In this document: piece by piece, positions 3,076-15,343 of the stretch
How positions within the stretch are numbered: the stretch's first letter is position 1
Layout: the number at the start of each line of letters is the position of its first letter
NCBI RefSeq assembly: GCF_039645565.1
Contig: NZ_CP147914.1
Location: 741,573-805,572 of the forward strand
DNA length: 64,000 bases
Source of the DNA: Sulfurimonas sp. HSL1-2
Lineage (GTDB): Bacteria; Campylobacterota; Campylobacteria; Campylobacterales; Sulfurimonadaceae
Direction of reading: 5' to 3'
The notes under the pieces: generated by a model
Told to the model about the DNA's origin: nothing
What the model saw: the letters and a program-made list of their open reading frames with translations, nothing else
Database searches by the model: none
Position numbers and translations under genes: made by a program

Positions 3076-3537
3076 TCAGTCGCCGACGGGAAGGTAGGCG
3101 TACCCCTCGTTCTGCTTTTCGATCAGGCCGACACCGGCGTTCAGGACCGTCGCAATGCCGGGGTAGATATCCTTGGCGTCGATCTTCTTCTTGGTCATTC
3201 CCGCCTGGCACATCAGGAAGGTGACGTCATAGGTCTCTGCCAGCGCGGCAATGCGTTTGGCGAGCTCCGGGGCGGCTTTTAGCAGTTCCGGCTCCTTGGC
3301 AAAGTCGTACCGGGCCGGCTCTTTGAGAAAGAACTTGTAGGCGTTCCCGTGGATGACGACGGCGACGTCGAGCTCTTTGAGTTGGTTCTCAAAGTAGGTC
3401 TTGTGGGCGACGATCCCTTTGAGGATCTTCTGTTCAAAGGTGTGCATGTCGCCGGTGGTCAGGTCGATGACGACTTTGGGGTTCGCTTCGGCAAAGAGCG
3501 AGAGCGCGGTCAGCAGGACGAGGAAGAGTTTTTTCAT
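3076..3537 (-). CDS. Periplasmic DsrE/DsrF-like protein (distal copy)
   Basis: A 153-aa protein with a signal peptide (MKKLFLVLLTALSLFAEA) and a DsrE/F-like fold: VVIDLTTG near 22-29, AVVIHGNAYKFF near 59-70 and the cysteine-bearing FLMCQAGM with Cys110. Related proteins carry or relay sulfur as persulfides. The ATG at 3537 is chosen over upstream in-frame starts because an AAGGAG ribosome site lies eight bases before it and the signal peptide starts exactly there. It has its own promoter, sharing a tandem-repeat block with the sox promoter. Specific role in thiosulfate oxidation is inference. Confidence 0.85.
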   Translation of the reverse strand: MKKLFLVLLTALSLFAEANPKVVIDLTTGDMHTFEQKILKGIVAHKTYFENQLKELDVAVVIHGNAYKFFLKEPARYDFAKEPELLKAAPELAKRIAALAETYDVTFLMCQAGMTKKKIDAKDIYPGIATVLNAGVGLIEKQNEGYAYLPVGD

Positions 3538-3558
3538 ACGGTCTCCTTGGTGGAGTGC

Positions 3559-3592
3559 ATCATATCGGGGGAAAGTAAAAACTATGTAAAAA
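3559..3592 (-). promoter_or_regulatory. Tandem-repeat promoter of the distal DsrE-like gene
   Basis: The plus strand reads GGAA-a-GTAAAAAC-t-ATGTAAAAA at 3570-3592: two GTAAAAA units 11 bases (one helical turn) apart. On the minus strand a -10 box (TATGAT, 3564-3559) follows after five bases, so the repeats sit where a -35 would be. The same block with only two differences, and the same five-base gap, lies before soxX at 12077-12110. This is the layout expected for a dimeric OmpR-type activator. Which regulator binds is inference. Confidence 0.7.
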
Positions 3593-3604: not shown

Positions 3605-3722
3605 GTCCGGTCCCCGTGGCTGCCTGCGGTTTGTGACGGAACGAACGTAGGAGTAGAAGAATGAATCAAACCAGTTCGGCAGGGAGGGGGGCCGAGGTTG
3701 CAGGCAGCCCCGGGGACCGGAC
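3605..3722. repeat. Long inverted repeat between DUF302 and DsrE-like genes
   Basis: Two 23-base arms, 3605-3627 and 3700-3722, are reverse complements with a single mismatch, separated by 72 bases. The outer ends read GTCCGGTCCCC and GGGGACCGGAC. The element begins six bases after the stop of the DUF302 gene and ends just before the promoter block of the next gene. No run of T follows either arm, so it is not a standard intrinsic terminator. It could insulate transcripts, stabilise the upstream mRNA end, or be a small mobile remnant. Confidence 0.75.
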
Positions 3723-3728
3723 GGAGGG

Positions 3729-4655
3729 TTACTCCGTCAGGTCGCCCAGGAGGGTCTCGAAATCGTCCTGGGCTTTCATGAGCTCGGCCGTGGCCGCGGC
3801 ATCCTGGACGCGCGCGCTGCTCATCCAGTTGTAGACGCCGGGGAAACCGATGACGATCTTGTCTTCGCCTTTTTTCTTGTACATCATCATCGTACAGGGC
3901 GCGAAGGCCGAAGCCTGCGGGCGCGTCCTGGCGACGTTGTAGATCACCTTCAGCTTGCAGATGGAGTAGCTGTCATAGAAATCAAACGGGTTGTCTATGC
4001 TTTCATCTTCTCCGACGACCATCTCGAAGTCGAGGGTATTGGAGAGCACGAAGCCTTTGGGGCTGAGGCCGCCCTGGATCCCCATAGCGAGCTCCTCTTT
4101 GGCATCTTCGTACTCGTCCCCTTCCACTTCGAGGCTGTAGGTTGAAACCAGCGGTCCCGTCGCCGGGAGCGGGTTCTCGTTTTCGATTTCCATGGAGGCC
4201 TTCGGCATCGCTTTTTCCAGGGCTTTCATCGCGGCCGTCTCGATGTTTTTCAGGATCGGTTCGACACTGCCAAGGCCGATGATCTTCGCCATCGCCTCGG
4301 CGGTCAGGACGGAGACGTGCAGCTGCTTCTCGCCCTTGTGCTGGTAGATCCCGAAGCCCATCGGCACGAAGATACCCGCGTCGGGGTATTTCACGACGAG
4401 CTTGCGGGAGAGGTCCGTATGGTAGGCCGTCAGCAGGTAAAAGACGTCGAAGTCGCTCTGCTGGAACTGGATGTTGAACGGTTTGTTCATCTCCGTATTG
4501 GCGGCGATGGTGAAGCCGTTGGCTGCAAGTGAACGTTCGATCACCTGCGGCAGGTCGCTCTTGGGATCGTTGTCGACGCTGTAAATGCGCAGGTCACCCT
4601 GGGCATGCAGCGCGACAACGGCTGTCAACAGGAAAAAAAGCATCTTTTTCATCAT
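3729..4655 (-). CDS. Periplasmic DUF302-domain protein
   Basis: A 308-aa protein with a signal peptide (first about 18 residues) and two similar halves. The first resembles the DUF302 fold (region around 45-130, including FDVFYLLTAYH and YPDAGIFVPMGFGIY); the second half repeats the pattern less clearly, ending in KIVIGFPGVYNWM. DUF302 proteins are frequent beside sulfur-oxidation genes but their reaction is not established. It is preceded by a DsrE-like gene eleven bases away in the same direction and followed by a long inverted repeat. Confidence 0.8.
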   Translation of the reverse strand: MMKKMLFFLLTAVVALHAQGDLRIYSVDNDPKSDLPQVIERSLAANGFTIAANTEMNKPFNIQFQQSDFDVFYLLTAYHTDLSRKLVVKYPDAGIFVPMGFGIYQHKGEKQLHVSVLTAEAMAKIIGLGSVEPILKNIETAAMKALEKAMPKASMEIENENPLPATGPLVSTYSLEVEGDEYEDAKEELAMGIQGGLSPKGFVLSNTLDFEMVVGEDESIDNPFDFYDSYSICKLKVIYNVARTRPQASAFAPCTMMMYKKKGEDKIVIGFPGVYNWMSSARVQDAAATAELMKAQDDFETLLGDLTE

Positions 4656-4666
4656 GGTGTTATCCT

Positions 4667-5098
4667 TTAGGGTTTGATGTAGACCCAGCCCTCTTTGACC
4701 CGCTCGATCATCTCGACGATGCCGGCGGTGACGACTTCGACGTCGTCGATCAGCTGGTCTTCGGTAATGTTTTTGGTCCGCATTGTATTGCCGCAGGCGA
4801 CAAACGTGACGTCGTACAGCATCAGCGTGCGTACCCGCTCCGCAATCTTGGGATTGTCCTTGAGCACGGTACGGATCCCGCCGGAATAGGCGACGATCTC
4901 CATCTGGACCTTCTCCGGTCCGTAGAACTTCAGCACGTTGTTGGCGGAGCTGAGCACATGGTTGATCGCCTCGTCACTCCCTTCGGTCACCGAGAAAACG
5001 ACCTGGCGGGGGTTGTCAAGGGCCGGCTTGGGGTCGGCGAACTCCGTATCGGCACTCAGCCAGGCGGCGAATGCCAGTAAGATGATCAGAAAACGCAT
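4667..5098 (-). CDS. Periplasmic DsrE-like protein (proximal copy)
   Basis: A 143-aa protein with an N-terminal signal (MRFLIILLAFAAWLSA) and a DsrE/F-like body: VVFSVTEGSDEAINHVLSSA near 33-52, QMEIVAYSGGIRTVL near 65-79 and a cysteine-bearing FVACGNTM with Cys102. Such proteins bind sulfane sulfur or act as structural partners. It follows the thioredoxin gene by one base and precedes the DUF302 gene, so it is probably the penultimate gene of the long sox transcript. It differs clearly in sequence from the copy at 3076-3537. Confidence 0.82.
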   Translation of the reverse strand: MRFLIILLAFAAWLSADTEFADPKPALDNPRQVVFSVTEGSDEAINHVLSSANNVLKFYGPEKVQMEIVAYSGGIRTVLKDNPKIAERVRTLMLYDVTFVACGNTMRTKNITEDQLIDDVEVVTAGIVEMIERVKEGWVYIKP

Positions 5099-5099
5099 G

Positions 5100-5477
5100 T
5101 TACTCCTTTGTGCACGCCGCTTCGGTCAGCGCGGTAAAATCTTCACGGTTCCATGAGCCGGGCACCGTCTTGATGACATGGCCCTGCGGGTTCAGGATGA
5201 CGAAAGTCGGGGTCATCGGGACCCGGGCTTCGAAAGGGACACTCTGCCGTGAAAGGTTTATTTTCACCGGCACGAAACACCCCTCCACCCAGCGGCTCAT
5301 CTCCGCGTCGTCAAAGACGGCACGCTCCATGTCGTGGCAGTAGTGGCAGTCGTCGCGGACCAGGGCGGCGAGGATGTTCCTGCCGCGCTGCGCAGCTTCG
5401 GCCGTCCCCTCTGCCCAGCTGCGCCACTCGACGGCGTCGGCGAGCAGCGGCAGCAGCAGCCACAGCAGCCTATTCAT
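5100..5477 (-). CDS. Periplasmic thioredoxin-fold protein, SoxW-like
   Basis: A 125-aa thioredoxin-fold protein with a short signal peptide and a CxxC pair at Cys44-Cys47 (CHYC), plus a cis-proline block (PMTPTFVI). Its likely task is keeping cysteines of Sox or cytochrome proteins reduced in the periplasm, in the manner of SoxW. The ATG at 5477 is chosen because the signal peptide begins there; this makes an eight-base overlap with the upstream hydrolase gene. Assignment as SoxW is by context and size, not by a diagnostic motif. Confidence 0.85.
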   Translation of the reverse strand: MNRLLWLLLPLLADAVEWRSWAEGTAEAAQRGRNILAALVRDDCHYCHDMERAVFDDAEMSRWVEGCFVPVKINLSRQSVPFEARVPMTPTFVILNPQGHVIKTVPGSWNREDFTALTEAACTKE

Positions 5478-6378
5478 CGTCCCACTCCAGCATCCGGTAG
5501 GCCACCTCGACGTTTTGCGCATGCATCGCGTCATAGAGGGCGACACTGCGGAAAGCGTCGAGGCGGATCGTTTTGGTGGCCTCGGCAATGCCGATGCCGT
5601 CGTCGATGGCATCGCGGACACGGTCGCGCAGCTGCGTCAGGTAAACATAGGTCATCTGCAGTGCGTCTTTGCCGGTGCTTTTGCCGTGGCCGCCGATGAT
5701 ATGCTTCAGCGGCATCGCCTGCACCGTCTCCAGCGCGGCGATCCATCCGTGGAGGTCGCCGTCGCGCAGGGAGGGGATACGGTCGTTGAAGACGAGGTCG
5801 CCTGCAAAGAGCGTTTCACGCTTCGGCAGATAGACCATGAGATCCTCTGCCGTGTGGGCCTTCCGGGTGAGGCGGATGATTTGGAGCGTTTCACCGTCAA
5901 CCTCGAGCGTTTCATTGGTATCGATGCTGTGTGAGGGCAGCACGACTTGAGTCCCGGCATAGGCTTCGGGGCTGATGCGTTTCTGCATCCGCGTCGTCTC
6001 CTGCGGGTTGACCGCTTTTTGAAAGAGGCCGGGTCCGTAGACGGGGATGCCCGCTGCGGCGAAGTAGCCGTTGCCGAGCCAGTGGTCGTCATGCACGTGG
6101 GTGTCGATGACCATGGCGGTCGGCTGGGCTTTGATTGCCTGCATCTTGGCCGCGGCCTCTTTGGCATAGGCATGGGTCGGGCCGCTGTCGATGACGAGCC
6201 AGCGGCGGCCGGTATCGACGTAGCAGCTGTTGACCATATTGCCGTTGTTGACGGTGTTCATCACCTCCGGCTTTCCGAAAAAACAGTAGATGCCCTGGGC
6301 AACATTGACCGGTTCGAGACGGTACTCGAACGCCACTGCCGATGTGAAGCAAAGCCACAAAAACCAGAGCATTTTCAT
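5470..6378 (-). CDS. Periplasmic metallo-beta-lactamase-fold hydrolase, SoxH-like
   Basis: A 302-aa protein with a signal peptide (first 16 residues) and the metal-binding signature THVHDDH (His94, His96, Asp98, His99). Later metal-site blocks appear as KAHTAEDLMVY and GGHGKS. SoxH-like members of this superfamily occur in sox clusters, with an unproven role in thiosulfate or thiol-ester chemistry. It is followed by the overlapping thioredoxin gene and preceded by the porin gene 13 bases away, indicating co-transcription. Confidence 0.85.
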   Translation of the reverse strand: MKMLWFLWLCFTSAVAFEYRLEPVNVAQGIYCFFGKPEVMNTVNNGNMVNSCYVDTGRRWLVIDSGPTHAYAKEAAAKMQAIKAQPTAMVIDTHVHDDHWLGNGYFAAAGIPVYGPGLFQKAVNPQETTRMQKRISPEAYAGTQVVLPSHSIDTNETLEVDGETLQIIRLTRKAHTAEDLMVYLPKRETLFAGDLVFNDRIPSLRDGDLHGWIAALETVQAMPLKHIIGGHGKSTGKDALQMTYVYLTQLRDRVRDAIDDGIGIAEATKTIRLDAFRSVALYDAMHAQNVEVAYRMLEWDDE

Positions 6379-6391
6379 CTGTCGATCCTTC

Positions 6392-7948
6392 TTAGAAGAG
6401 GTAGTTCAGCTCGAAGCGGTACTCGTTGTAGGAGTCTTTGTCATACCCCGCTTCGCGATCTTTTGCATCGACCAGGCCGATACGGACTTTGGCTTCCAGG
6501 CCCGGAACCGCTTTGATCTGTTCAATGATATCGATATGGGCAATATTGCTGTCCGCCTGGACGCCTGCCGCCTGCTTATCCTCGTCGAAGTCCTGCATGG
6601 CGTAGCGGACCATTGCGCTCAGGCCCGGAACCAGGCCGGCCTTGTCGAAGTTGTAGTTCACCTGCGCGGCGGTCGTTTTGGTATTGGCGTACCAGTTGTA
6701 CTGCGCCATCGCACGGGTATAGCCGCCCGTCGGGAAACCGCGCCACGGTGCGACGATGTCCGCTTCGTCGGCGACGGCAGAGTATGCGACCATCACCTTG
6801 AGCGGACCGCCTTCGGCGACGAGGCGCGCCATCCAGAGGCTGGAGTCGAGGCTGTCCGGCGTCGCGTAGCCTTTGGTGTCGTCAAAGACGGCCGTGCCGC
6901 CCGTCCAGTCGACGAGGGTGCCTTTGAGAGACGCCCCGCCGACTTTCCCGCCGCCGTCGTCCATCTGCTGCATGTAGCGCGCACCCGGCGTGACCGTCCA
7001 GCCGCCGACAGGGATGGCATAGTTGATCTCACCGGTCAGGGAGCTGACGACGCCCGGCACGCCGGCGTAGGTCAGGTCGAGCTGCAGGTTCTTGATCGAC
7101 TTGTTCTGAATGTCGGCGACGATCAGCGAATGGGTGATGTCATCACCCGCCGCGCGGAAGTTGTTGACGCTCAGACCCTTGTGGACTGCGGAGTCGTCGT
7201 TGCCGTCCCAGTGCGACTTGATGCTCGTGTTGGAGTCGTCATAGGTGAGGACGTCGTGGAAAGTCTCGTGGTCACGCAGCTTCTGCTGGTAGAACCAGGC
7301 ACCGCGGATCCGTGTCTGCGGGAGCTCCTTGGTCGTAAAAGAGTACCCTTCGAAGGTGTTCGGGATCATCTTCGTGTCGTTGGACTTGGTCAGGAAGCTC
7401 TCGAAGATCTGACGGCCGGCGACGAAGGAGGTCTTGGAGATGTCGTACTGGACATAGGCCTGTGCCAGCGTCGCGAAACCGTAGTTGCCGAGGCGGTTGA
7501 CGTTGTAGCGGCTGGTCGTGTCTTTCCCGGCCTTCAGGTAGCCGATGTTCGCTTCGGACATACGTTCGCCCGGGAACGGGTTGTCCGTGTAGTAGAGACC
7601 GGCCGTGGCGCTCAGGCCGTACAGGGAAGCGGTTTTATAGATCAGGTTACCGCCGAGCCCCAGGGCACGGTTGTCTTTGTTCTTGGTCTGGGCCGTATCG
7701 TCGTTCTTCCAGTCCCAGTTGAAGGAGTTGACGCGAAGGCGGCCGTAGACGATCCCTTTTGAGAACATCTCCGTAATGGTGTCCGCTTTGCCCGGAACAA
7801 CATTGTAGACTTCCATCATATTGCCTTTCAGGGAGCGTTTGACCTTGAATGCTTCACCGTCGTCCGCATACGCGTTGCTTGCCAATGTACAGGCCAGTGC
7901 TGCTGCCGCAGCCGCCGAAATGAATTTGATTGATTGAATAGTAGCCAT
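6392..7948 (-). CDS. Outer-membrane porin, OprD-like
   Basis: A 518-aa protein with a signal peptide ending near ASNAYA and a body of alternating aromatic and polar strands typical of an outer-membrane beta barrel. It ends in ...YRFELNYLF, with the C-terminal phenylalanine that barrel-assembly machinery recognises. It resembles the OprD-type porins common in Campylobacterota. Its position directly after soxB suggests a channel for thiosulfate or sulfate, which is inference. The long plus-strand frame opposite it is a shadow. Confidence 0.88.
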   Translation of the reverse strand: MATIQSIKFISAAAAAALACTLASNAYADDGEAFKVKRSLKGNMMEVYNVVPGKADTITEMFSKGIVYGRLRVNSFNWDWKNDDTAQTKNKDNRALGLGGNLIYKTASLYGLSATAGLYYTDNPFPGERMSEANIGYLKAGKDTTSRYNVNRLGNYGFATLAQAYVQYDISKTSFVAGRQIFESFLTKSNDTKMIPNTFEGYSFTTKELPQTRIRGAWFYQQKLRDHETFHDVLTYDDSNTSIKSHWDGNDDSAVHKGLSVNNFRAAGDDITHSLIVADIQNKSIKNLQLDLTYAGVPGVVSSLTGEINYAIPVGGWTVTPGARYMQQMDDGGGKVGGASLKGTLVDWTGGTAVFDDTKGYATPDSLDSSLWMARLVAEGGPLKVMVAYSAVADEADIVAPWRGFPTGGYTRAMAQYNWYANTKTTAAQVNYNFDKAGLVPGLSAMVRYAMQDFDEDKQAAGVQADSNIAHIDIIEQIKAVPGLEAKVRIGLVDAKDREAGYDKDSYNEYRFELNYLF

Positions 7949-8028
7949 TTTCTCATCCTTTTTTTATGAGTGGCGTGAGATAATGTCCATGGTGAAGAAT
8001 CACTGTCCATGCGACATTCTCACTGCTT

Positions 8029-8051
8029 GGCGGCAGGTACCAGCTGCCGCC
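8029..8051. other. GC-rich hairpin between soxB and the porin gene
   Basis: GGCGGCAG (8029-8036) and CTGCCGCC (8044-8051) form a perfect eight-pair stem with a seven-base loop. No T-run follows on either strand, so it is unlikely to be a full intrinsic terminator. In the 149-base gap inside the sox transcript it may block exonucleases and let soxB and porin messages be made at different levels. Confidence 0.6.
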
Positions 8052-8097
8052 TTCCTCTGGTTGAAACCCTACACTCCGTGCACGAAAGCCGTGCCGC

Positions 8098-9867
8098 TTA
8101 CGAACATCCCCCGCCTTTTGCAGGACAGCCGCAGTCGTAGTCGAGCAGTTTGACGTTGCCTGCATTGCTGACATCGACCGTTTTCTTGCGGCGGATGTAG
8201 TCGCGGACGACGTCGTAGACCGGGCGGGTCTTCCCTGTTTGGAGGTTGGAACCCGCATTCTGCAGGTTGCCGCCCCAGGAAGAGACCACGTAGGTCTTCT
8301 TCGGGTCGAGCGGCTTGCCGCCGACGCGCAGGTTGCTGATACGCTTGCCGCGCGGGTTGCCGACGGTGATCTCGTAGGTCATCCCGCCCAGGCGGCTCAT
8401 GTCGCCGCCCTGCTGATAGAGCGGGTTGGCGTTGAAGACGTTGTCGGCGATATCCTCGAGCAGGGCGGCGATACGCTCGCCTCCCAGTTCGAAGGTATAG
8501 ACGTTGGGGTAGGTGATGCCGCACATTTCGTAGACGTTGTCCATCAAAATGTCGTCGCCCGGCAGGACCGTCGTCCCCCAGCGGTAGCCCGGCGTGAAGG
8601 AGATGTCACACTTCATCTCGTCCATGATCGCGTCGTTGATGAGCTGGTCGAAGGTCGAGAAGAAGGTGTCGCGCTTGTAGAGCAGCCCCTTCGTTTTCCC
8701 GAGCACTTCGTTGAACTCCTTGTCAAACGGTGCATAGAGCTCCGCGACGAGCTTCTCGCCCGCCGGGTCCGCCGGAATGATGTTGGACGCGACCGGGATG
8801 AGCTTGTACTCGTACCCCTTGACCTTGTGGTCACGGATATCGATATCGAGGCGGCCGACGTATTTGCCGTGGCTGCCCGCAATGACGATAACCGTACCGT
8901 CAATGACAATCGGCTTCGGCGAGGGGTCATGCGTATGGCCGCTCAGGATGAAGTCGATGCCGTGGACCTTGCGGGCCACCTCCTGGTCGACGCTGAAACC
9001 GTCGTGCGACAGGACGACGACACAGTCGACCTTGTGCTCTTCACGCAGCTCGTCGACATACTCCTGAAGGGTGTCAAGCCGCAGTCCGAAGCTCCACCCC
9101 TCGGTGAACTCTTTGGGGTTCGCCGTCGAGGTGAACGGGAAGGACTGGCCGATAATGCCGATCTTTGCCCCGCCGCGCTCTTCGATGGTGTACGGTTCGA
9201 AGATAAGCTCTTCGTACTCCTCGGCAAAGGGATCGTCCCCGATGATGTTCTGGGAAACGAACTTCGCATCGAGCATCCCGATGAGCTCCTTGACACGCTC
9301 TTTGCCGTAGGTGAACTCCCAGTGGCCGACCATGACGTCGACGCCGAGGTAGTTCTGCGCCTTGACGATCGCTTCGCCCTCTGTTTTCAGCGCGACGCCG
9401 GTACCCTGCCAGGTGTCGCCGGAGTCCAGCAGCAGGACCCTGTCCTTGCCGCGGCGCTTCTCGACCTCGTCGATGAGGGTCTTCATGTGGGCGATACCGC
9501 CCATCTTTCCGAATTTTTTCGCCAGCGTTTCGAAATCCATGTGGGTATCGAAGTAGGCGTCAAGGGAACTCGGCTCCAGCCCGTAGTGCTTGGCGAAGGA
9601 TTCGCCGCACAGGAACCCGGGCGTTCCGACGAGGTTCGGCGCCGAGATCAGCGTCGAAGGCTCGCGCCAGTAGAGCGGCTTGATGTGCGCATGCAGGTCA
9701 CAGATGTGCAGCAGGGTCACATTGCCCGTCTCTTTGAAATCGTACAGATCGGCAAGCGTGATGTCCGCGGGGCTTTTCCCCCCGACGGTCGTCGCGTAGC
9801 TGTTGGAAACCGTCACCAGTCCCAGTGCTGCCGCGATCTGCAGAAAATCTCTTCTCGAAATATCCAT
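8098..9867 (-). CDS. soxB: Thiosulfohydrolase SoxB
   Basis: Hydrolyses the sulfate group from the thiosulfonate attached to the SoxY cysteine in the periplasmic Sox cycle. The 589-aa protein begins MDISRRDFLQ, a twin-arginine export signal. Metal-site motifs of the 5'-nucleotidase family are present: CDLHAH (Asp57, His59), LDSGDTWQGTG, LSHDGF and SGHTHDPS. The C-terminal nucleotidase-like domain covers roughly the last 200 residues. It follows soxA by 12 bases. The presence of SoxB with SoxXYZA defines a core Sox system. Confidence 0.97.
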   Translation of the reverse strand: MDISRRDFLQIAAALGLVTVSNSYATTVGGKSPADITLADLYDFKETGNVTLLHICDLHAHIKPLYWREPSTLISAPNLVGTPGFLCGESFAKHYGLEPSSLDAYFDTHMDFETLAKKFGKMGGIAHMKTLIDEVEKRRGKDRVLLLDSGDTWQGTGVALKTEGEAIVKAQNYLGVDVMVGHWEFTYGKERVKELIGMLDAKFVSQNIIGDDPFAEEYEELIFEPYTIEERGGAKIGIIGQSFPFTSTANPKEFTEGWSFGLRLDTLQEYVDELREEHKVDCVVVLSHDGFSVDQEVARKVHGIDFILSGHTHDPSPKPIVIDGTVIVIAGSHGKYVGRLDIDIRDHKVKGYEYKLIPVASNIIPADPAGEKLVAELYAPFDKEFNEVLGKTKGLLYKRDTFFSTFDQLINDAIMDEMKCDISFTPGYRWGTTVLPGDDILMDNVYEMCGITYPNVYTFELGGERIAALLEDIADNVFNANPLYQQGGDMSRLGGMTYEITVGNPRGKRISNLRVGGKPLDPKKTYVVSSWGGNLQNAGSNLQTGKTRPVYDVVRDYIRRKKTVDVSNAGNVKLLDYDCGCPAKGGGCS

Positions 9868-9879
9868 AACTGCTTTCCT

Positions 9880-10650
9880 TTAGCGTTTCAGACCGGGGAT
9901 GGCGATCGTTTTGTTCTTCGCCTTGGCCAGATTGGTCACGTAGACCTCCAGCCCCACCATCTCGTCCGAACCGATCGGCAGCACCGCCAGAAGGGCGTTT
10001 TCCATACACCCCTGGAAGCGGCGCTGAAGCGTCCGCAGCTGTGACTTGGTCATCCGGTAGGCCGGCCAGGTCGCGCCGGCGGCGTTTTCACCGAGATCCG
10101 GCAGGGGCTGTGTGCGCAGGACGGAGCCGATGATGTCGGCCGAGTGGCAGCTGTTGCACGAAAGCCCGCGCCCGCCGCGTGCGGTCATAAAGACCTCCTC
10201 GCCGAGTTTGTAGGCTGCGCGCATCTGCGGGTTGGCGTTGACGTCGACACGCACCGGTTCTTCGTTTGCCAGCGATTTGGCGTAGGCCAGCATCGCGAAC
10301 ATCTCTTTACTGCTGAGCTTGAACGGTTTGTGGCCGTTCTTGGCCATCAGCGCCTGCATCACCTGGTCGACGCCGAGGACGGCGTCGAACGGCTTGATGT
10401 AGCGCGGGAAGCCCGAGATGTATTCGGGGAGTTTCGCTTCGGAGACGCCCATGAACTTTGCCAGGCCGGCGTCGCCGCCGCAGTACTCTTCGACGAGTTC
10501 GCCGCCCCATTGGACGTCCATCTCCGCGGGGTTGTTCTCCAGCAGTTCGGCATAGAGCGCGCGGTCGGCGTCGCTCATGGCGAACTGCTCACCGCCGATG
10601 GCCAGCGTGCCGAGAAGCAGGGTGGCTGCAATGATTGATGTAGCTTTCAT
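9880..10650 (-). CDS. soxA: SoxA, c-type cytochrome subunit of SoxAX
   Basis: With SoxX it couples thiosulfate oxidatively to the SoxY cysteine. The 256-aa protein has a signal peptide and one heme motif, CNSCH (Cys165, Cys168, His169); the cysteine that acts as axial ligand and sulfur carrier is Cys215 in RRFQGCMENAL. Only one CxxCH is visible, so this is a mono-heme SoxA. It begins three bases after the soxZ stop. Confidence 0.96.
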   Translation of the reverse strand: MKATSIIAATLLLGTLAIGGEQFAMSDADRALYAELLENNPAEMDVQWGGELVEEYCGGDAGLAKFMGVSEAKLPEYISGFPRYIKPFDAVLGVDQVMQALMAKNGHKPFKLSSKEMFAMLAYAKSLANEEPVRVDVNANPQMRAAYKLGEEVFMTARGGRGLSCNSCHSADIIGSVLRTQPLPDLGENAAGATWPAYRMTKSQLRTLQRRFQGCMENALLAVLPIGSDEMVGLEVYVTNLAKAKNKTIAIPGLKR

Positions 10651-10653
10651 GGC

Positions 10654-10989
10654 TCAGCCTTTCGGTTTGAGTTTTTTCGACTGCTCTTGGACTTCGCCGG
10701 TGTTGGTCTTGTAGACGACTTTCAGTGTCCCTGCGGCGGGTACTTTGAAGTTGATCGTGAAGACCGGGTTCGTCGAAACGGATTCCCAGACCTGCATCGT
10801 CGTGAAGGGGGTGTCGTTGTAGAAGAACTTCACCTCCGTGATGTAATCGGCGGGGACGATCTTGCCGCTCTTCTTGTCTTTGCGCATCCCGGTTTCCATC
10901 GGGTGCATGACCATGAAGTTGACCTTGACGATGTCGCCGCTCTTAAACTTTTTCGGTTTGATCTTGATCAGTGATTTTCTTTCTGCCAT
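10654..10989 (-). CDS. soxZ: SoxZ, partner of the SoxY carrier
   Basis: The 111-aa immunoglobulin-like subunit that binds SoxY and presents its swinging arm to the other Sox enzymes. It shows the family pattern KFKSGDIVKVNFMVMHPMETG near residues 15-35 and the later EVKFFYNDTPFTTMQVW. It has no signal peptide, which is normal because SoxZ is exported together with SoxY through the Tat route. Confidence 0.96.
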   Translation of the reverse strand: MAERKSLIKIKPKKFKSGDIVKVNFMVMHPMETGMRKDKKSGKIVPADYITEVKFFYNDTPFTTMQVWESVSTNPVFTINFKVPAAGTLKVVYKTNTGEVQEQSKKLKPKG

Positions 10990-11030
10990 TGTCTATCCTT
11001 TTATGTTGTTGCTCGGGTATTGCGCGGCGA

Positions 11031-11507
11031 TCAGCCGCATCCGCCGATCGTGACTTTGACGCTCTGCTTTGCGCTGAGGAATTCGCCGGTGCTGGTTTCG
11101 GCGACAACAAGGACGTCCTGGGAGCTGCCGAGTTTGATCCGTGTCGCGAACATCGCCGCGCCGTTGGCCGGTGTCAGCATGATGTCGGCACAGCGGACGT
11201 TGCTGTTTTTCGTCGCGAAGACGTGGATTGCCTTGACGTAGTCGTCGTTGGTCATCGGGGAGTCTACCTCGATAGTAACGGGTACGACGGCGCCGTTTTC
11301 CGCGATTTCAGGGGCTTTGAGGTGCACTTTCTTCGAAGGTGTCACGGCCTTGCCGCCGGTGATGGCCTTGAGGGCTGTATCGATATCCATCGTGTTGGGC
11401 CCTTTGGGCGCTTCCGCCGCGAGCAGGCTCTGCGGGGTGAGGGTTGCGGTTGCTGCCGTGGCCGCTGCGGCCAGTCCGATACGTTGTAAGAAGCTTCTTC
11501 TTTGCAT
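11031..11507 (-). CDS. soxY: SoxY, covalent sulfur carrier
   Basis: A 158-aa protein that carries the sulfur substrate on a C-terminal cysteine. The tail reads KVTIGGCG, giving the required cysteine one residue from the end; the usual GGCGG is shortened by one glycine. The start MQRRSFLQRIG is a twin-arginine signal. It lies 11 bases downstream of soxX and 41 bases upstream of soxZ. Confidence 0.96.
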   Translation of the reverse strand: MQRRSFLQRIGLAAAATAATATLTPQSLLAAEAPKGPNTMDIDTALKAITGGKAVTPSKKVHLKAPEIAENGAVVPVTIEVDSPMTNDDYVKAIHVFATKNSNVRCADIMLTPANGAAMFATRIKLGSSQDVLVVAETSTGEFLSAKQSVKVTIGGCG

Positions 11508-11518
11508 AGGGTTCTCCT

Positions 11519-12049
11519 TTAGTGTTTGATGGAAACGATATACGAGGTGATATCGCAGATTTCACGTTCGGTAAAGAGACCGGTCGTGAGGTTGATCGTC
11601 ATATGGGTGTTCGGATTGTCGACGCGCGCATCGGCAATCTTCTGGTAGACGAACGGATTGTCGCGGGTACCCGTTTCAATGAAAAACGCGTGATAGTTTG
11701 TCAGGTCCGGCCCGATATTCCCGGCGCCTTTGGCCCCTTCGATATTGTGGCAGGCGACACAGTTGCCGTACTGCTTCGGCGAGCCGTCCGCATTCTTTTT
11801 CGTCAGGCCCGCGGGCAGGTCGCCTTTGGCTTTTTCTCCATTGAGGTTATGGAAAATATAGGCGCCCCGTGCGATCGCGTCCTTGTCGTCCGTGATACAT
11901 CCTGCCGGCATCGTGTAGGCCTTGGCCGGCCCGAACAGATCCTTCTGGATGATCGACGCCGCTTCGGGGCGTTCGATGGCATCGGACAGGTTGGACGCGA
12001 ACGCCACACCCAGACCGATGGTTGTACTGAGTAGCAGCCATCTCTTCAT
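11519..12049 (-). CDS. soxX: SoxX, c-type cytochrome subunit of SoxAX
   Basis: First gene of the soxXYZAB transcript. The 176-aa protein has a signal peptide and one heme site, CVACH (Cys97, Cys100, His101), followed by the mono-heme cytochrome pattern KGAGNIGPDLTNY; a methionine in NTHMTINL is a good axial ligand candidate. Together with SoxA it forms the heme enzyme that starts the cycle. Its promoter carries a tandem GTAAAAA repeat shared with the distal DsrE-like gene. Confidence 0.95.
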   Translation of the reverse strand: MKRWLLLSTTIGLGVAFASNLSDAIERPEAASIIQKDLFGPAKAYTMPAGCITDDKDAIARGAYIFHNLNGEKAKGDLPAGLTKKNADGSPKQYGNCVACHNIEGAKGAGNIGPDLTNYHAFFIETGTRDNPFVYQKIADARVDNPNTHMTINLTTGLFTEREICDITSYIVSIKH

Positions 12050-12076: not shown

Positions 12077-12110
12077 ATTGTAACGGTGGAATGTAAAAAC
12101 AATGTAAAAA
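12077..12110 (-). promoter_or_regulatory. Tandem-repeat promoter of soxXYZAB
   Basis: The plus strand reads GGAA-t-GTAAAAAC-a-ATGTAAAAA at 12088-12110, two GTAAAAA units 11 bases apart. On the minus strand a TACAAT -10 box (12082-12077) follows after five bases and the soxX ATG comes 27 bases later. The block is identical at 21 of 23 positions to the one at 3570-3592, with the same spacing to its -10. Occupation by the adjacent OmpR-type regulator is inferred from layout and proximity. Confidence 0.7.
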
Positions 12111-12156: not shown

Positions 12157-13332
12157 TTAAATAGCAGGTTTTTGGCAGAGTTCCGGCGGGAAAACGTAGG
12201 TGAATGTGCTTCCCTGTTGCGGTGCGGAGGTGACTTCGAGAGCGATGCCGGCCTCCTCCATGATCGCCTTGACGATGTTGAGCCCGATGCCGAAACCGCC
12301 CTTTCCGGTCTCTTCGCGGTAGTAGCGCTCAAAGATCTTCTCGGTGTTCTCGATCCCGAGACCGTAATCCTTGAAGGTGAGTTCGCAGCGGTGGTCGTAC
12401 TGTTTAAGCGCCACCTCGACGATGCTGTTCTCGTGGGAGTACTTGATGGCGTTGGAGATGTTGTTGTCGATGATGCGCTGCAGCTGGGTCTGGTTGAAGT
12501 GCAGGATCACCCCTTCATCGATTTCCGAGGCGATGGTGATCCCTTTCATGGCGGCGACTTCGTTGAAGTAGAGGATCCGCTCGCGCACGAAGGCACTGAC
12601 ATCGATGTCGTCGTACTCGAAAACGATCTGGCGGTTCTTGATGAGGTACTCCATATCGTTATAGATGTTCGAGAGGGTCTTGGAGGCCGCTTTGATGCGC
12701 TGCAGGTATTTGCTCTGCGGGTTTTTGCGGTTGTAGAGGTCGATGTTGATGTTGATGATCGAGAGCGGGGTGTTGATCTCGTGGACGGTGTCTTTGATGA
12801 AGTTGTCCAGCTTCTGATTGACGCGTTTGAACGGCAGGGCGAAACGCTGCAGGAAGAGCAGCGAAAGGAAAAAGACAAGGACGACGATGGCGATCAGGAT
12901 CACGGCGACGCGCTCGTAGACGGGCGCGTAATTGAGGTGGTTGGCGACGATGAGATACTCCGCACCGAAATAGCGTTCGCGGGGGAGGGGGATGATAAGG
13001 TAGGCGCTGCGGCTTTCGTCGATGTGGTAGCCTGCGGCGAAGTGCTCCATCGGGAAATCGATCAGGGTGAAGACCGGTTTGAAGTGCAGGTCGTAAAGCC
13101 CCGAGACGATCCGTTTGAAGCGGGGGTACTCGAAGTAGTTGTCGCGGTTTTCGTCATACTCCTCCATGGCGCTGATGATGCGCGAGGCGTGCTGTTTGAG
13201 CATCAGTTCGTTCTGGATCCCGTGGATCTGCTTCATATAGACCGTGTAGACGTAGAGCGGGGCGAGCAGGATCACCGTGATCAGTCCCGTGTAGAGCGCG
13301 GCGTTTTTGAGGGCGTACTGGCTATCTTTCAA
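12157..13332 (-). CDS. Sensor histidine kinase
   Basis: A 391-aa membrane kinase. One transmembrane segment lies near residues 12-34, a periplasmic part runs to about 140, and a second segment spans about 142-163. The phospho-acceptor is His184 in TVHEINTPLS; the N box (DNNISNAIKYS) and the glycine-rich GKGGFGIGLN complete the ATPase domain. No HAMP or PAS domain is apparent. It overlaps the response regulator gene by 11 bases and sits immediately upstream of soxX on the same strand, so sox control is its likely job. Confidence 0.93.
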   Translation of the reverse strand: MKDSQYALKNAALYTGLITVILLAPLYVYTVYMKQIHGIQNELMLKQHASRIISAMEEYDENRDNYFEYPRFKRIVSGLYDLHFKPVFTLIDFPMEHFAAGYHIDESRSAYLIIPLPRERYFGAEYLIVANHLNYAPVYERVAVILIAIVVLVFFLSLLFLQRFALPFKRVNQKLDNFIKDTVHEINTPLSIININIDLYNRKNPQSKYLQRIKAASKTLSNIYNDMEYLIKNRQIVFEYDDIDVSAFVRERILYFNEVAAMKGITIASEIDEGVILHFNQTQLQRIIDNNISNAIKYSHENSIVEVALKQYDHRCELTFKDYGLGIENTEKIFERYYREETGKGGFGIGLNIVKAIMEEAGIALEVTSAPQQGSTFTYVFPPELCQKPAI

Positions 13333-13975
13333 TGATATATCCTACCCCGCGGCGGTTCTTGATAATGTCGGCGGGCAGTTTTTTGCGCAGGTTGTTGATC
13401 TGGACGCGGATGTTGGCCGGGTCGACGTATTCGCCCCACACCTCGTCCTGGAACATCGCCATGGAAACGGCCTGGTTCGTGTGCCGCAGCAGGACCTCCA
13501 GGATATCATTCTCCGTCTTGCTCAGCGTGATCGGCTCTTCTTTGTAGCTCAGCTGCATCCGTTTCGTATCGTAGTGCAGATCGGGGGCGAGTTCGATCGC
13601 TTCGCTGTGCTTGTAGTAGTAGCTGCGCAGCGCATGCTCGATGCGCAGCTGCAGCTCGGTGAGGTCGAAGGGTTTGCGGATGTAGTCGCAGCAGCCGCGC
13701 TTGTACCCCTCTTCGAGGTCCTTGGTCTGGGTGCGGGCGGTGATGAAGATGGCGGGGGTCTCGTTGCCCTCGGCGCGCAGGGTTTTGAGCAGTTCGAAGC
13801 CGCTGAGGCCGGGAACGTTGACGTCGAAGAGGAAGAGGTCGAAGTGGGCCGCGCAGGCGGCGTCGAAAGCGTCGTCGCCGTTGGCGTAGGTCTCGACGGT
13901 GAAGTCCAGATCTTCGAGAAACTCCTCGATGCTGACGCGCAGGGCGTATTCGTCTTCGAGCAACAGAATTTTCAT
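13322..13975 (-). CDS. OmpR-family response regulator
   Basis: A 217-aa two-domain regulator. The receiver domain has the acidic pair Glu7-Asp8, the phospho-acceptor Asp51 in FLFDVNVPG and the conserved lysine in IRKPFDL; the C-terminal winged helix (about 125-217) ends in NRRGVGYIIE, the usual OmpR-type wing. Such regulators bind tandem direct repeats about 11 bases apart, matching the blocks before soxX and at 3570-3592. It overlaps the sensor gene on one side and the kinase gene on the other. Confidence 0.94.
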   Translation of the reverse strand: MKILLLEDEYALRVSIEEFLEDLDFTVETYANGDDAFDAACAAHFDLFLFDVNVPGLSGFELLKTLRAEGNETPAIFITARTQTKDLEEGYKRGCCDYIRKPFDLTELQLRIEHALRSYYYKHSEAIELAPDLHYDTKRMQLSYKEEPITLSKTENDILEVLLRHTNQAVSMAMFQDEVWGEYVDPANIRVQINNLRKKLPADIIKNRRGVGYIIER

Positions 13976-15105
13976 CGTATCTCTCCTTCGATCTTGCGGG
14001 CGAGTTTGTAGTGGAGCATCAGCGCGATCAGCTCCTCTTTGGTGTAGGAAGAGAGCACGTCGCGCGCCTCCTCCATAAAGAGTTCCCGGTCCTCCTCGGG
14101 CACGGTGTCCTTGAGCGAGAGCAGGGCCTTGTCGTAGCCGCTGTGGTAGACCTTGTTGTCGTACTGCTCTTTCTTGACGATGTCGTAGAGGTTGTTGCGC
14201 GAAAAGGCAAGCAGGAAAGAGAGGTCCTCCCCGGTGCGGGCAAAGTGGTCGATGCTCTGCTTGGGCATGACGAAGACGAAGGCGCCGATGGTCTCGCCGT
14301 CGCCGTTGTGCATGGGCTCGAAGAAGATGTATTTGTTCTCCCGGAGCATGACGCGCTCTTTGCGCAGCTGTTTCATGTCCAGGCGCTGCAGGACCTTGAG
14401 GTTGACGTTGTTGTAGCGGCGGTTGCCGACAAGGTACCAGGCGACGGAGGGGTTGTTCTGCATCAGCACGGCGGTGTTGTAGTAACTGTCGTCGAGCAGT
14501 GCGTAGAGGTCGATGCCGAACTTGTGGAAGAAGTCGGTACTGGCGTCGAAGAATTTCAGCACCTCGACGAAACCGATGAGCTCGCCTTCTTCGTACATCG
14601 GCACCGTTGCTTTGATCCCCAGCCGCCGTCCGACTTCGATGGAGGCGCGCGGTTTTTTATGGAGGATGATCTCTTCGAGGTCACGGCGGTAGGTGTCGAG
14701 CGGCATGCCCGAAAAGAGGTTGTCCGCATCCCAGCTGCGGGCGAAGAGCCGCGAGTCCGCGGTGATGATCTGGGCCCGTACGAGCTCGGAGGTGTTCTGC
14801 TGGACGGTCTGGATCATCCGTTTGAGCAGGGCGAAACCGGTCTCGTCGTCATCCTCTTTGAGGGCGTTTCGCAGCGTGTCGTTCTCGGAGAGGATCAGCG
14901 CGAAGCGCAGGGCATCCTCCCTTTCGTTGCGCAGCTCGGTACGGAGCGAAAGGCTGAGCTGGTCGCTGACCTCGTCGACGACCTGCCAGGAGACCTCTTT
15001 GTTCAGGGAGTAGACGGTCCACGAGAGCAGGGCAAGCATGGCTGCAAAGGGGAAAATGAACCAGAACCGCTTCGGTGTGATGATCGTCAACTTCTTCTCC
15101 GTCAT
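13972..15105 (-). CDS. Membrane-anchored Cache-type sensor without output domain
   Basis: A 377-aa protein with one N-terminal membrane segment (about residues 13-30) and a long extracytoplasmic part that looks like a Cache-type ligand-binding domain: a long helix with charged residues (45-75), then VRAQIITADSRLFARSWDADNLFSGMP in pieces, and IGFVEVLKFFD. No kinase, cyclase, HAMP or chemotaxis signalling domain follows, so it cannot signal alone. Its stop overlaps the response regulator start by four bases, suggesting it works with the adjacent kinase as a separate sensory subunit. Confidence 0.78.
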   Translation of the reverse strand: MTEKKLTIITPKRFWFIFPFAAMLALLSWTVYSLNKEVSWQVVDEVSDQLSLSLRTELRNEREDALRFALILSENDTLRNALKEDDDETGFALLKRMIQTVQQNTSELVRAQIITADSRLFARSWDADNLFSGMPLDTYRRDLEEIILHKKPRASIEVGRRLGIKATVPMYEEGELIGFVEVLKFFDASTDFFHKFGIDLYALLDDSYYNTAVLMQNNPSVAWYLVGNRRYNNVNLKVLQRLDMKQLRKERVMLRENKYIFFEPMHNGDGETIGAFVFVMPKQSIDHFARTGEDLSFLLAFSRNNLYDIVKKEQYDNKVYHSGYDKALLSLKDTVPEEDRELFMEEARDVLSSYTKEELIALMLHYKLARKIEGEIR

Positions 15106-15343
15106 AAGGGAGTGATGATAGCCGGATAATATAAATTTTGTATAAAGATTTCAAATCTGTTGCGCAGTTTTTCAGGACACGGTTCGGACCTATTTCAAAT
15201 TGTTGATCTGAGAACACAAAAGCTGCATGCGGAATAAAATTTAAAAAACCGTCCGTAATCGTTAAAGTTGGTTTGAGTACAATGGCCGCAACGGATTCGG
15301 GCGCCGGGCGCGTACCGAAAATGACGAGACAAAGGATGGCGGG
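15106..15343. promoter_or_regulatory. Divergent promoter region
   Basis: A 238-base gap with no supportable gene. On the minus strand TATATT (15133-15128) is a plausible -10 for the Cache-sensor operon. On the plus strand TACAAT (15278-15283) precedes the secreted protein gene, whose ribosome site AAAGGATG lies close to its ATG. The GTAAAAA tandem repeat of the sox promoter is not present here, so I see no sign of simple autoregulation through that site. Confidence 0.45.

Follow-up and report, generated by a model that had tools for sequence, protein, structure and literature searches.

The window, that is, the whole stretch of 64,000 nucleotides analysed here (C1:741573-805572), has a G+C content of 57.7% and lies within a genome that consists of one complete contig of 2,521,190 bases (2.52 Mb). 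From position 15105 down to position 3076 all genes are encoded on the minus strand, and they follow one another in the order dCache_3 sensor, regulator, kinase, soxXYZAB, OprD-type porin, SoxH-like metallo-beta-lactamase fold protein, thioredoxin-like protein, DsrE, DUF302 and a further DsrE. The sox genes begin with soxX (11519..12049; above the TIGR04485 cut-off), the first gene of what is proposed here to be a controlled operon. The rest of that run (3729..11507) comprises soxY, soxZ, soxA and soxB together with the genes for the porin, the SoxH-like protein, the thioredoxin-like protein, a DsrE-family protein and DUF302, in an order kept in relatives. The final gene of the array (3076..3540) encodes a periplasmic-looking protein of the DsrE family (Pfam DsrE) and has a promoter module of its own, the site of which is kept at orthologues. 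A first-pass annotation of this DNA had described this gene as distant from sox, which for this genome is an overstatement: it is 8.5 kb off, yet it closes the same unidirectional array.

Three genes upstream of soxX encode (i) a dCache_3 sensor protein that lacks a kinase domain (13972..15105, minus strand; Pfam dCache_3) and has one N-terminal transmembrane segment, judging by the hydropathy of the protein and its orthologues; (ii) a response regulator (13322..13975, minus strand), the proposed binder of the sites described below; and (iii) a membrane histidine kinase (12157..13332, minus strand) with two predicted transmembrane segments, about 100 residues outside the membrane, and HisKA and HATPase_c domains. 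The regulator consists of a receiver (Pfam Response_reg, 6.7e-25) and a C-terminal winged helix (Trans_reg_C, 2.4e-15), both above the Pfam cut-offs, and matches the solved OmpR-family regulator 1kgs over nearly its full length (2e-26). This domain order, together with a HisKA/HATPase_c membrane kinase encoded among the neighbouring genes, places it within the OmpR/PhoB family. It would work like PhoB and is not PhoB itself, its score of 116.2 bits against the equivalog model TIGR02154 being far below the cut-off of 296.2 bits; nor, with a receiver and Trans_reg_C as its domains, is it an ArsR-type SoxR. The dCache_3 protein is proposed, from its predicted domain and topology, to be a third, extracytoplasmic sensing component.

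Between the DUF302 gene and the terminal dsrE gene, positions 3605-3728 hold a 23-bp inverted repeat that is unique in the genome and at least part of which occurs also in genomes of the same genus. The corresponding RNA folds with a computed energy of -67.7 kcal/mol (z -6.9), perhaps as a terminator or as an RNA stabiliser, and so strong a hairpin at this place makes a separate dsrE transcription unit plausible.

Two promoter modules of common design

Upstream of soxX and of the terminal dsrE gene lie two 23-base blocks, GGAATGTAAAAACAATGTAAAAA at 12088-12110 and GGAAAGTAAAAACTATGTAAAAA at 3570-3592, which are identical at 21/23 positions; on the minus strand their common reading is TTTTTACATNG TTTTTACWTTCC. 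In the direction of transcription the block reads TTTTTACATTG-TTTTTACATTC-C at soxX and TTTTTACATAG-TTTTTACTTTC-C at dsrE, each being made up of two 11-bp direct repeats of the form TTTACA-N5-TTTACA (with TTTACT as the second core at dsrE). On the minus strand a -10 box follows after exactly five bases in both cases, namely TACAAT after ACCGT at soxX and TATGAT after CCCGA at dsrE. Both the degree of identity and this spacing had been claimed by the first-pass annotation, and both are confirmed on the letters. The soxX operon promoter module occupies 12077..12110 on the minus strand (TTTACA at 12108-12103 and 12097-12092, 11 bp apart; TACAAT at 12082-12077) and the dsrE promoter module 3559..3592, likewise on the minus strand (TTTACA at 3590-3585, TTTACT at 3579-3574; TATGAT at 3564-3559). 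Outside the module the two promoters have no evident similarity, and the -35 hexamer of the soxX promoter is poor (ACATTG at 17 bp).

A scan of the complete genome, which the first-pass annotation had suggested as a check, left its idea standing: in pattern searches the 21-base core TTTTTACWTNNTTTTTACWTT occurs with 0-2 mismatches at exactly two places, the soxX and dsrE modules. Five more places appear when three mismatches are allowed, a tolerance at which the reversed pattern gives 14 matches. A weight matrix was also built from 41 soxX promoters, of which almost all come from other genera (promoters with a core equal to that of the window were dropped by the training filter, and one same-genus variant may remain). 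Within the window it ranks the soxX module first (49.1 bits) and the dsrE module second (28.2 bits), the maximum in 60 random sequences drawn from a dinucleotide model being 7.1 bits. The near identity of the two blocks is not due to chance.

Three further candidates emerged from these scans. The third-best matrix match in the window (19.1 bits), TTTAT-N6-TTTAT-N10-TATCAT at 15115..15148 on the minus strand, lies 5' of the dCache_3 sensor gene and is a weak candidate autoregulation site; it scores here and at two loci of relatives (L009 and L042) and is absent from almost all others, so that weak autoregulation is possible in the source species and a few relatives, and the idea that the sensor-regulator operon generally controls itself was rejected. 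A second sox cluster (soxC and others, at about C1:2446-2450 kb) was set aside as a target, having a best matrix score of 11.2 and poor half-sites. The pattern TTTAC-N6-TTTAC-N10-TANNNT is matched strictly at a third place in the genome, G000:C1:264148-264179 (L082, L250), 5' of a moxR-DUF58 operon. Although this site fits the pattern exactly, its score on the soxX matrix is -13 bits, and it recurs at moxR in members of the genus that yielded no sox regulator (G001 and G005), and in another form in G078 and G160; moxR was therefore not accepted as a regulon member, and its site probably belongs to another OmpR-type regulator that uses similar half-sites.

Conservation of the site and its dependence on the regulator gene

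Regulator orthologues, mostly at 55-70% identity, are found in Sulfuricurvum, Sulfurimonas and related Campylobacterota, and the order sensor, regulator, kinase, soxXYZAB is kept in most loci long enough to show it. Tandem half-sites lie 5' of soxX in 43/43 distinct promoters of these relatives. The half-site is TTTAC, apart from a first half of TTTAT in two promoters and TTCAC half-sites in one, and the -10 box begins exactly 10 bp past the second half-site in all 43 (the scan was for TANNNT with T or G allowed as its first letter, and every box found begins with TA). Hence the layout recognised by the first-pass annotation as typical of OmpR-type regulators, with two half-sites in an 11-base register over the -35 region, is borne out, and the PhoB-type arrangement of direct repeats at a fixed 10 bp from the -10 box is invariant among these promoters. 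Such strict spacing, maintained over wide sequence divergence, is the trace expected of a regulator that touches the polymerase. In close orthologues the recognition helix is nearly invariant (DPANIRVQINNLRKKL). One locus, L074, combines soxX half-sites of the form TTCAC-N6-TTCAC with a changed helix, DPGTVRAQIKNLKQAL, a pairing that, as a single case, is suggestive. At another locus (L256; G194:C40:1-1000) the stretch directly 5' of soxX resembles, by eye, the 3' end of a group II intron, which would part soxX from its promoter.

The relationship between site and regulator was examined in 200 genomes of the family by counting strict matches to TTTACR-N5-TTTACW-N9-TANNNT, with the reversed motif as control. 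The 98 genomes with a sox-adjacent regulator contain 181 strict matches versus 15 for the control, and the 102 genomes without it contain 33 versus 28. Since soxX promoters can account for no more than 98 of the 181, at least 83 other matches remain, against a control expectation of 15. Within a single genus the corresponding counts are 72 versus 11 with the regulator and 28 versus 28 without it. The Fisher tests on such counts ignore kinship among the genomes, and the effect holds inside two genera. The presence of the motif thus depends on the sox-adjacent regulator gene, and the candidate that the first-pass annotation had named, the OmpR-type regulator encoded beside sox, gains support accordingly.

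Regulator and soxX are found together in 93 genomes; 5 and 8 genomes are exceptions, the 8 being those with soxX only. Among the latter, two are contig-edge losses (G182, and G032, where the C-terminus of the regulator is visible), four have soxX at the start of a contig (G005, G060, G194 and G221), and one (G176) has a truncated regulator and lacks the motif. At this last locus (L253; G176:C22) the regulator gene is cut after about 20 codons and joined straight to soxX, the kinase and the motif being missing, an arrangement that reflects either an assembly fault or a real deletion. Seven regulator-bearing genomes have no strict motif; the three that were checked at soxX all (3/3) have a site with one mismatch.

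The dsrE gene shows a similar retention of the module. Of 12 orthologues from other genera that were compared, all with at least 47% identity, 8/12 carry the module, intact or with a single mismatch; in the remaining four the -10 box is one base further (one), the site is degenerate (one) or there is no trace of it (two). The two trace-less orthologues lie beside DUF302 or other sox-array genes and are probably inside an operon. Among more distant DsrE paralogues (below 45% identity) a comparable site occurs only at L184. In all, sites 5' of dsrE orthologues were found at no fewer than 12 loci outside the genus, including strict ones in Sulfuricurvum-type genomes, where a gene for a rhodanese with a signal-peptide-like start comes next. 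Many site-bearing dsrE orthologues are on another contig than soxX or tens of kilobases away from it, so the tie between dsrE and sox, which the first-pass annotation had drawn, does not rest on neighbourhood.

The proposal of a sulfur-oxidation regulon motif can moreover be extended, since the same site precedes other sulfur genes in relatives: YeeE/YedE-type sulfur transporters (PF04143; 4 cases), dCache_3 sensors or chemoreceptors (10), DUF302 (3) and, in single cases, a rhodanese, a SoxH-like gene and a molybdopterin oxidoreductase gene. Several of the dCache_3 targets are full-length chemoreceptors, the MCP signalling domain having been shown for one. These targets and the regulator-adjacent sensor have the same dCache_3 domain; this, along with the sensor's single transmembrane segment and its lack of a kinase domain, suggests an outward-facing co-sensor whose ligand is common to the chemoreceptors. 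A more specific version, which is tentative and probably too strong, is that the kinase is switched by the kinase-less dCache_3 protein when the latter binds a reduced sulfur anion, so that the same module would govern both sox expression and swimming toward the substrate.

A proposed sulfur-oxidation switch and its alternatives

Taken as one joint claim, to which a probability of roughly 0.87 is assigned, the two blocks are sites of the regulator at 13322-13975, which acts as a kinase-driven activator of the sox run and of dsrE within a small sulfur regulon. On this model the kinase would respond to an extracellular reduced sulfur compound, thiosulfate being the likeliest candidate, probably with the help of the dCache_3 protein. 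The phosphorylated regulator would sit as a dimer, head-to-tail, on the two 11-bp repeats, which end 10 bp short of the -10 box and overlie the -35 region of weak promoters, and would recruit RNA polymerase to soxXYZAB and the genes downstream, with dsrE transcribed separately; the same regulator and site would constitute a small sulfur-oxidation regulon in Sulfurimonadaceae and near relatives. What the computation shows is that the sites exist, that their geometry is fixed and conserved, that they depend on the regulator gene being present and that they recur at sulfur genes; physical binding, activation rather than repression, thiosulfate as the ligand and the part played by the dCache_3 protein are what we infer. 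In another genus, Sulfurovum indicum expresses sox and the neighbouring dsrE, soxW and soxH more highly on thiosulfate (PMC10045233).

The regulator might instead bind as a repressor that is freed by the sulfur signal. A protein bound over the -35 region could block polymerase, and the known Sox repressor, SoxR of Hyphomicrobium, does act by repression (PMC10451225, PMC11582611). Yet the soxX promoter, because its -35 hexamer is so poor, looks activator-dependent, and the half-sites here are placed as those of PhoB-type activators are, in tandem, 11 bp each, and upstream of the -10 box by a fixed helical distance rather than over it; repression is accordingly considered improbable. Still less probable is that another OmpR-family regulator binds the sites and that the sox-adjacent gene is a mere neighbour without direct control. 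The source genome does encode a paralogue (36% identity, C1:1802587), some relatives have a second one at 46-52%, and a similar TTTAC repeat accompanies moxR in genomes that yielded no sox regulator. Against this, the moxR site matches the soxX matrix as poorly as described above, and the enrichment of the motif vanishes wherever the sox-adjacent regulator is missing, within one genus as well as over the family.

The weakest contender, to which hardly any weight is given, treats the block as common AT-rich promoter architecture, with the near identity arising by chance or through a recent local duplication. T-rich promoters are common in Campylobacterota, and genomes of other families also contain some matches to the strict pattern. 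But in a window of this G+C content the core occurs only twice in the genome, the fixed spacing is kept in 43/43 promoters, the reversed control and the regulator-negative genomes give chance-level counts, and the two promoters show no evident resemblance outside the module.

Known relatives of the system and its significance

PhoB binds upstream of the -10 box, in place of the -35 element. Its Pho box consists of two 11-bp direct repeats, each with a conserved 7-bp and a less conserved 4-bp part (PMC2648988). The system described here resembles PhoB of Escherichia coli in combining an OmpR-family winged-helix regulator with two such repeats, but differs in its half-site (TTTACAT versus CTGTCAT), in its location beside sox with sulfur oxidation genes as targets, and in the additional dCache_3 protein encoded alongside. 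A motif of DccR (Cj1223c), WTTCAC-N6-TTCACW, is known from Campylobacter jejuni, and the TTCAC-N6-TTCAC site of L074 presumably fits it; compared by motif only, the half-sites of the window (TTTAC) differ, TTCAC being found in one relative. To our knowledge DccRS, whose reported role is in colonisation, has no link with sox. Like the present system, it is OmpR-like and from the same phylum, and it controls a few genes for periplasmic or membrane proteins (PMC9449129). PceS/PceP (TCS2) of Sulfurospirillum likewise pairs an OmpR-family regulator of a Campylobacterota respiratory energy pathway with repeats over the -35 region, but its half-sites are CTATW, 17 bp apart, and its pathway is organohalide respiration (PMC7755780).

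Control of sox itself is known from SoxR of Hyphomicrobium and other Proteobacteria, which responds to thiosulfate or sulfane sulfur. SoxR, however, is an ArsR-type one-component repressor reported to be strictly confined to Proteobacteria (PMC10451225), whereas the system here is a two-component, OmpR-type one in Campylobacterota. RsrS-RsrR of Acidithiobacillus caldus is also a two-component system for thiosulfate oxidation genes (PMC5093147), likened here by description rather than by site or architecture; it belongs to another phylum and to the tetrathionate intermediate pathway. In the literature searched, which took in few subscription papers, no sox regulator of Campylobacterota was found. 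The OmpR/PhoB-type two-component regulon and the Pho box layout are known, and the proposed sox regulator with its site in Campylobacterota would be a new example of them.

Campylobacterota are major oxidisers of thiosulfate and sulfide in sulfidic waters, vents and sediments. Site and regulator together provide a concrete sox switch that is open to test, along with a matrix for finding its targets, and they nominate further genes as new sulfur candidates: those for the periplasmic DsrE and the rhodanese that accompanies it in Sulfuricurvum, for DUF302, for the YeeE/YedE transporter and for the dCache_3 chemoreceptors.
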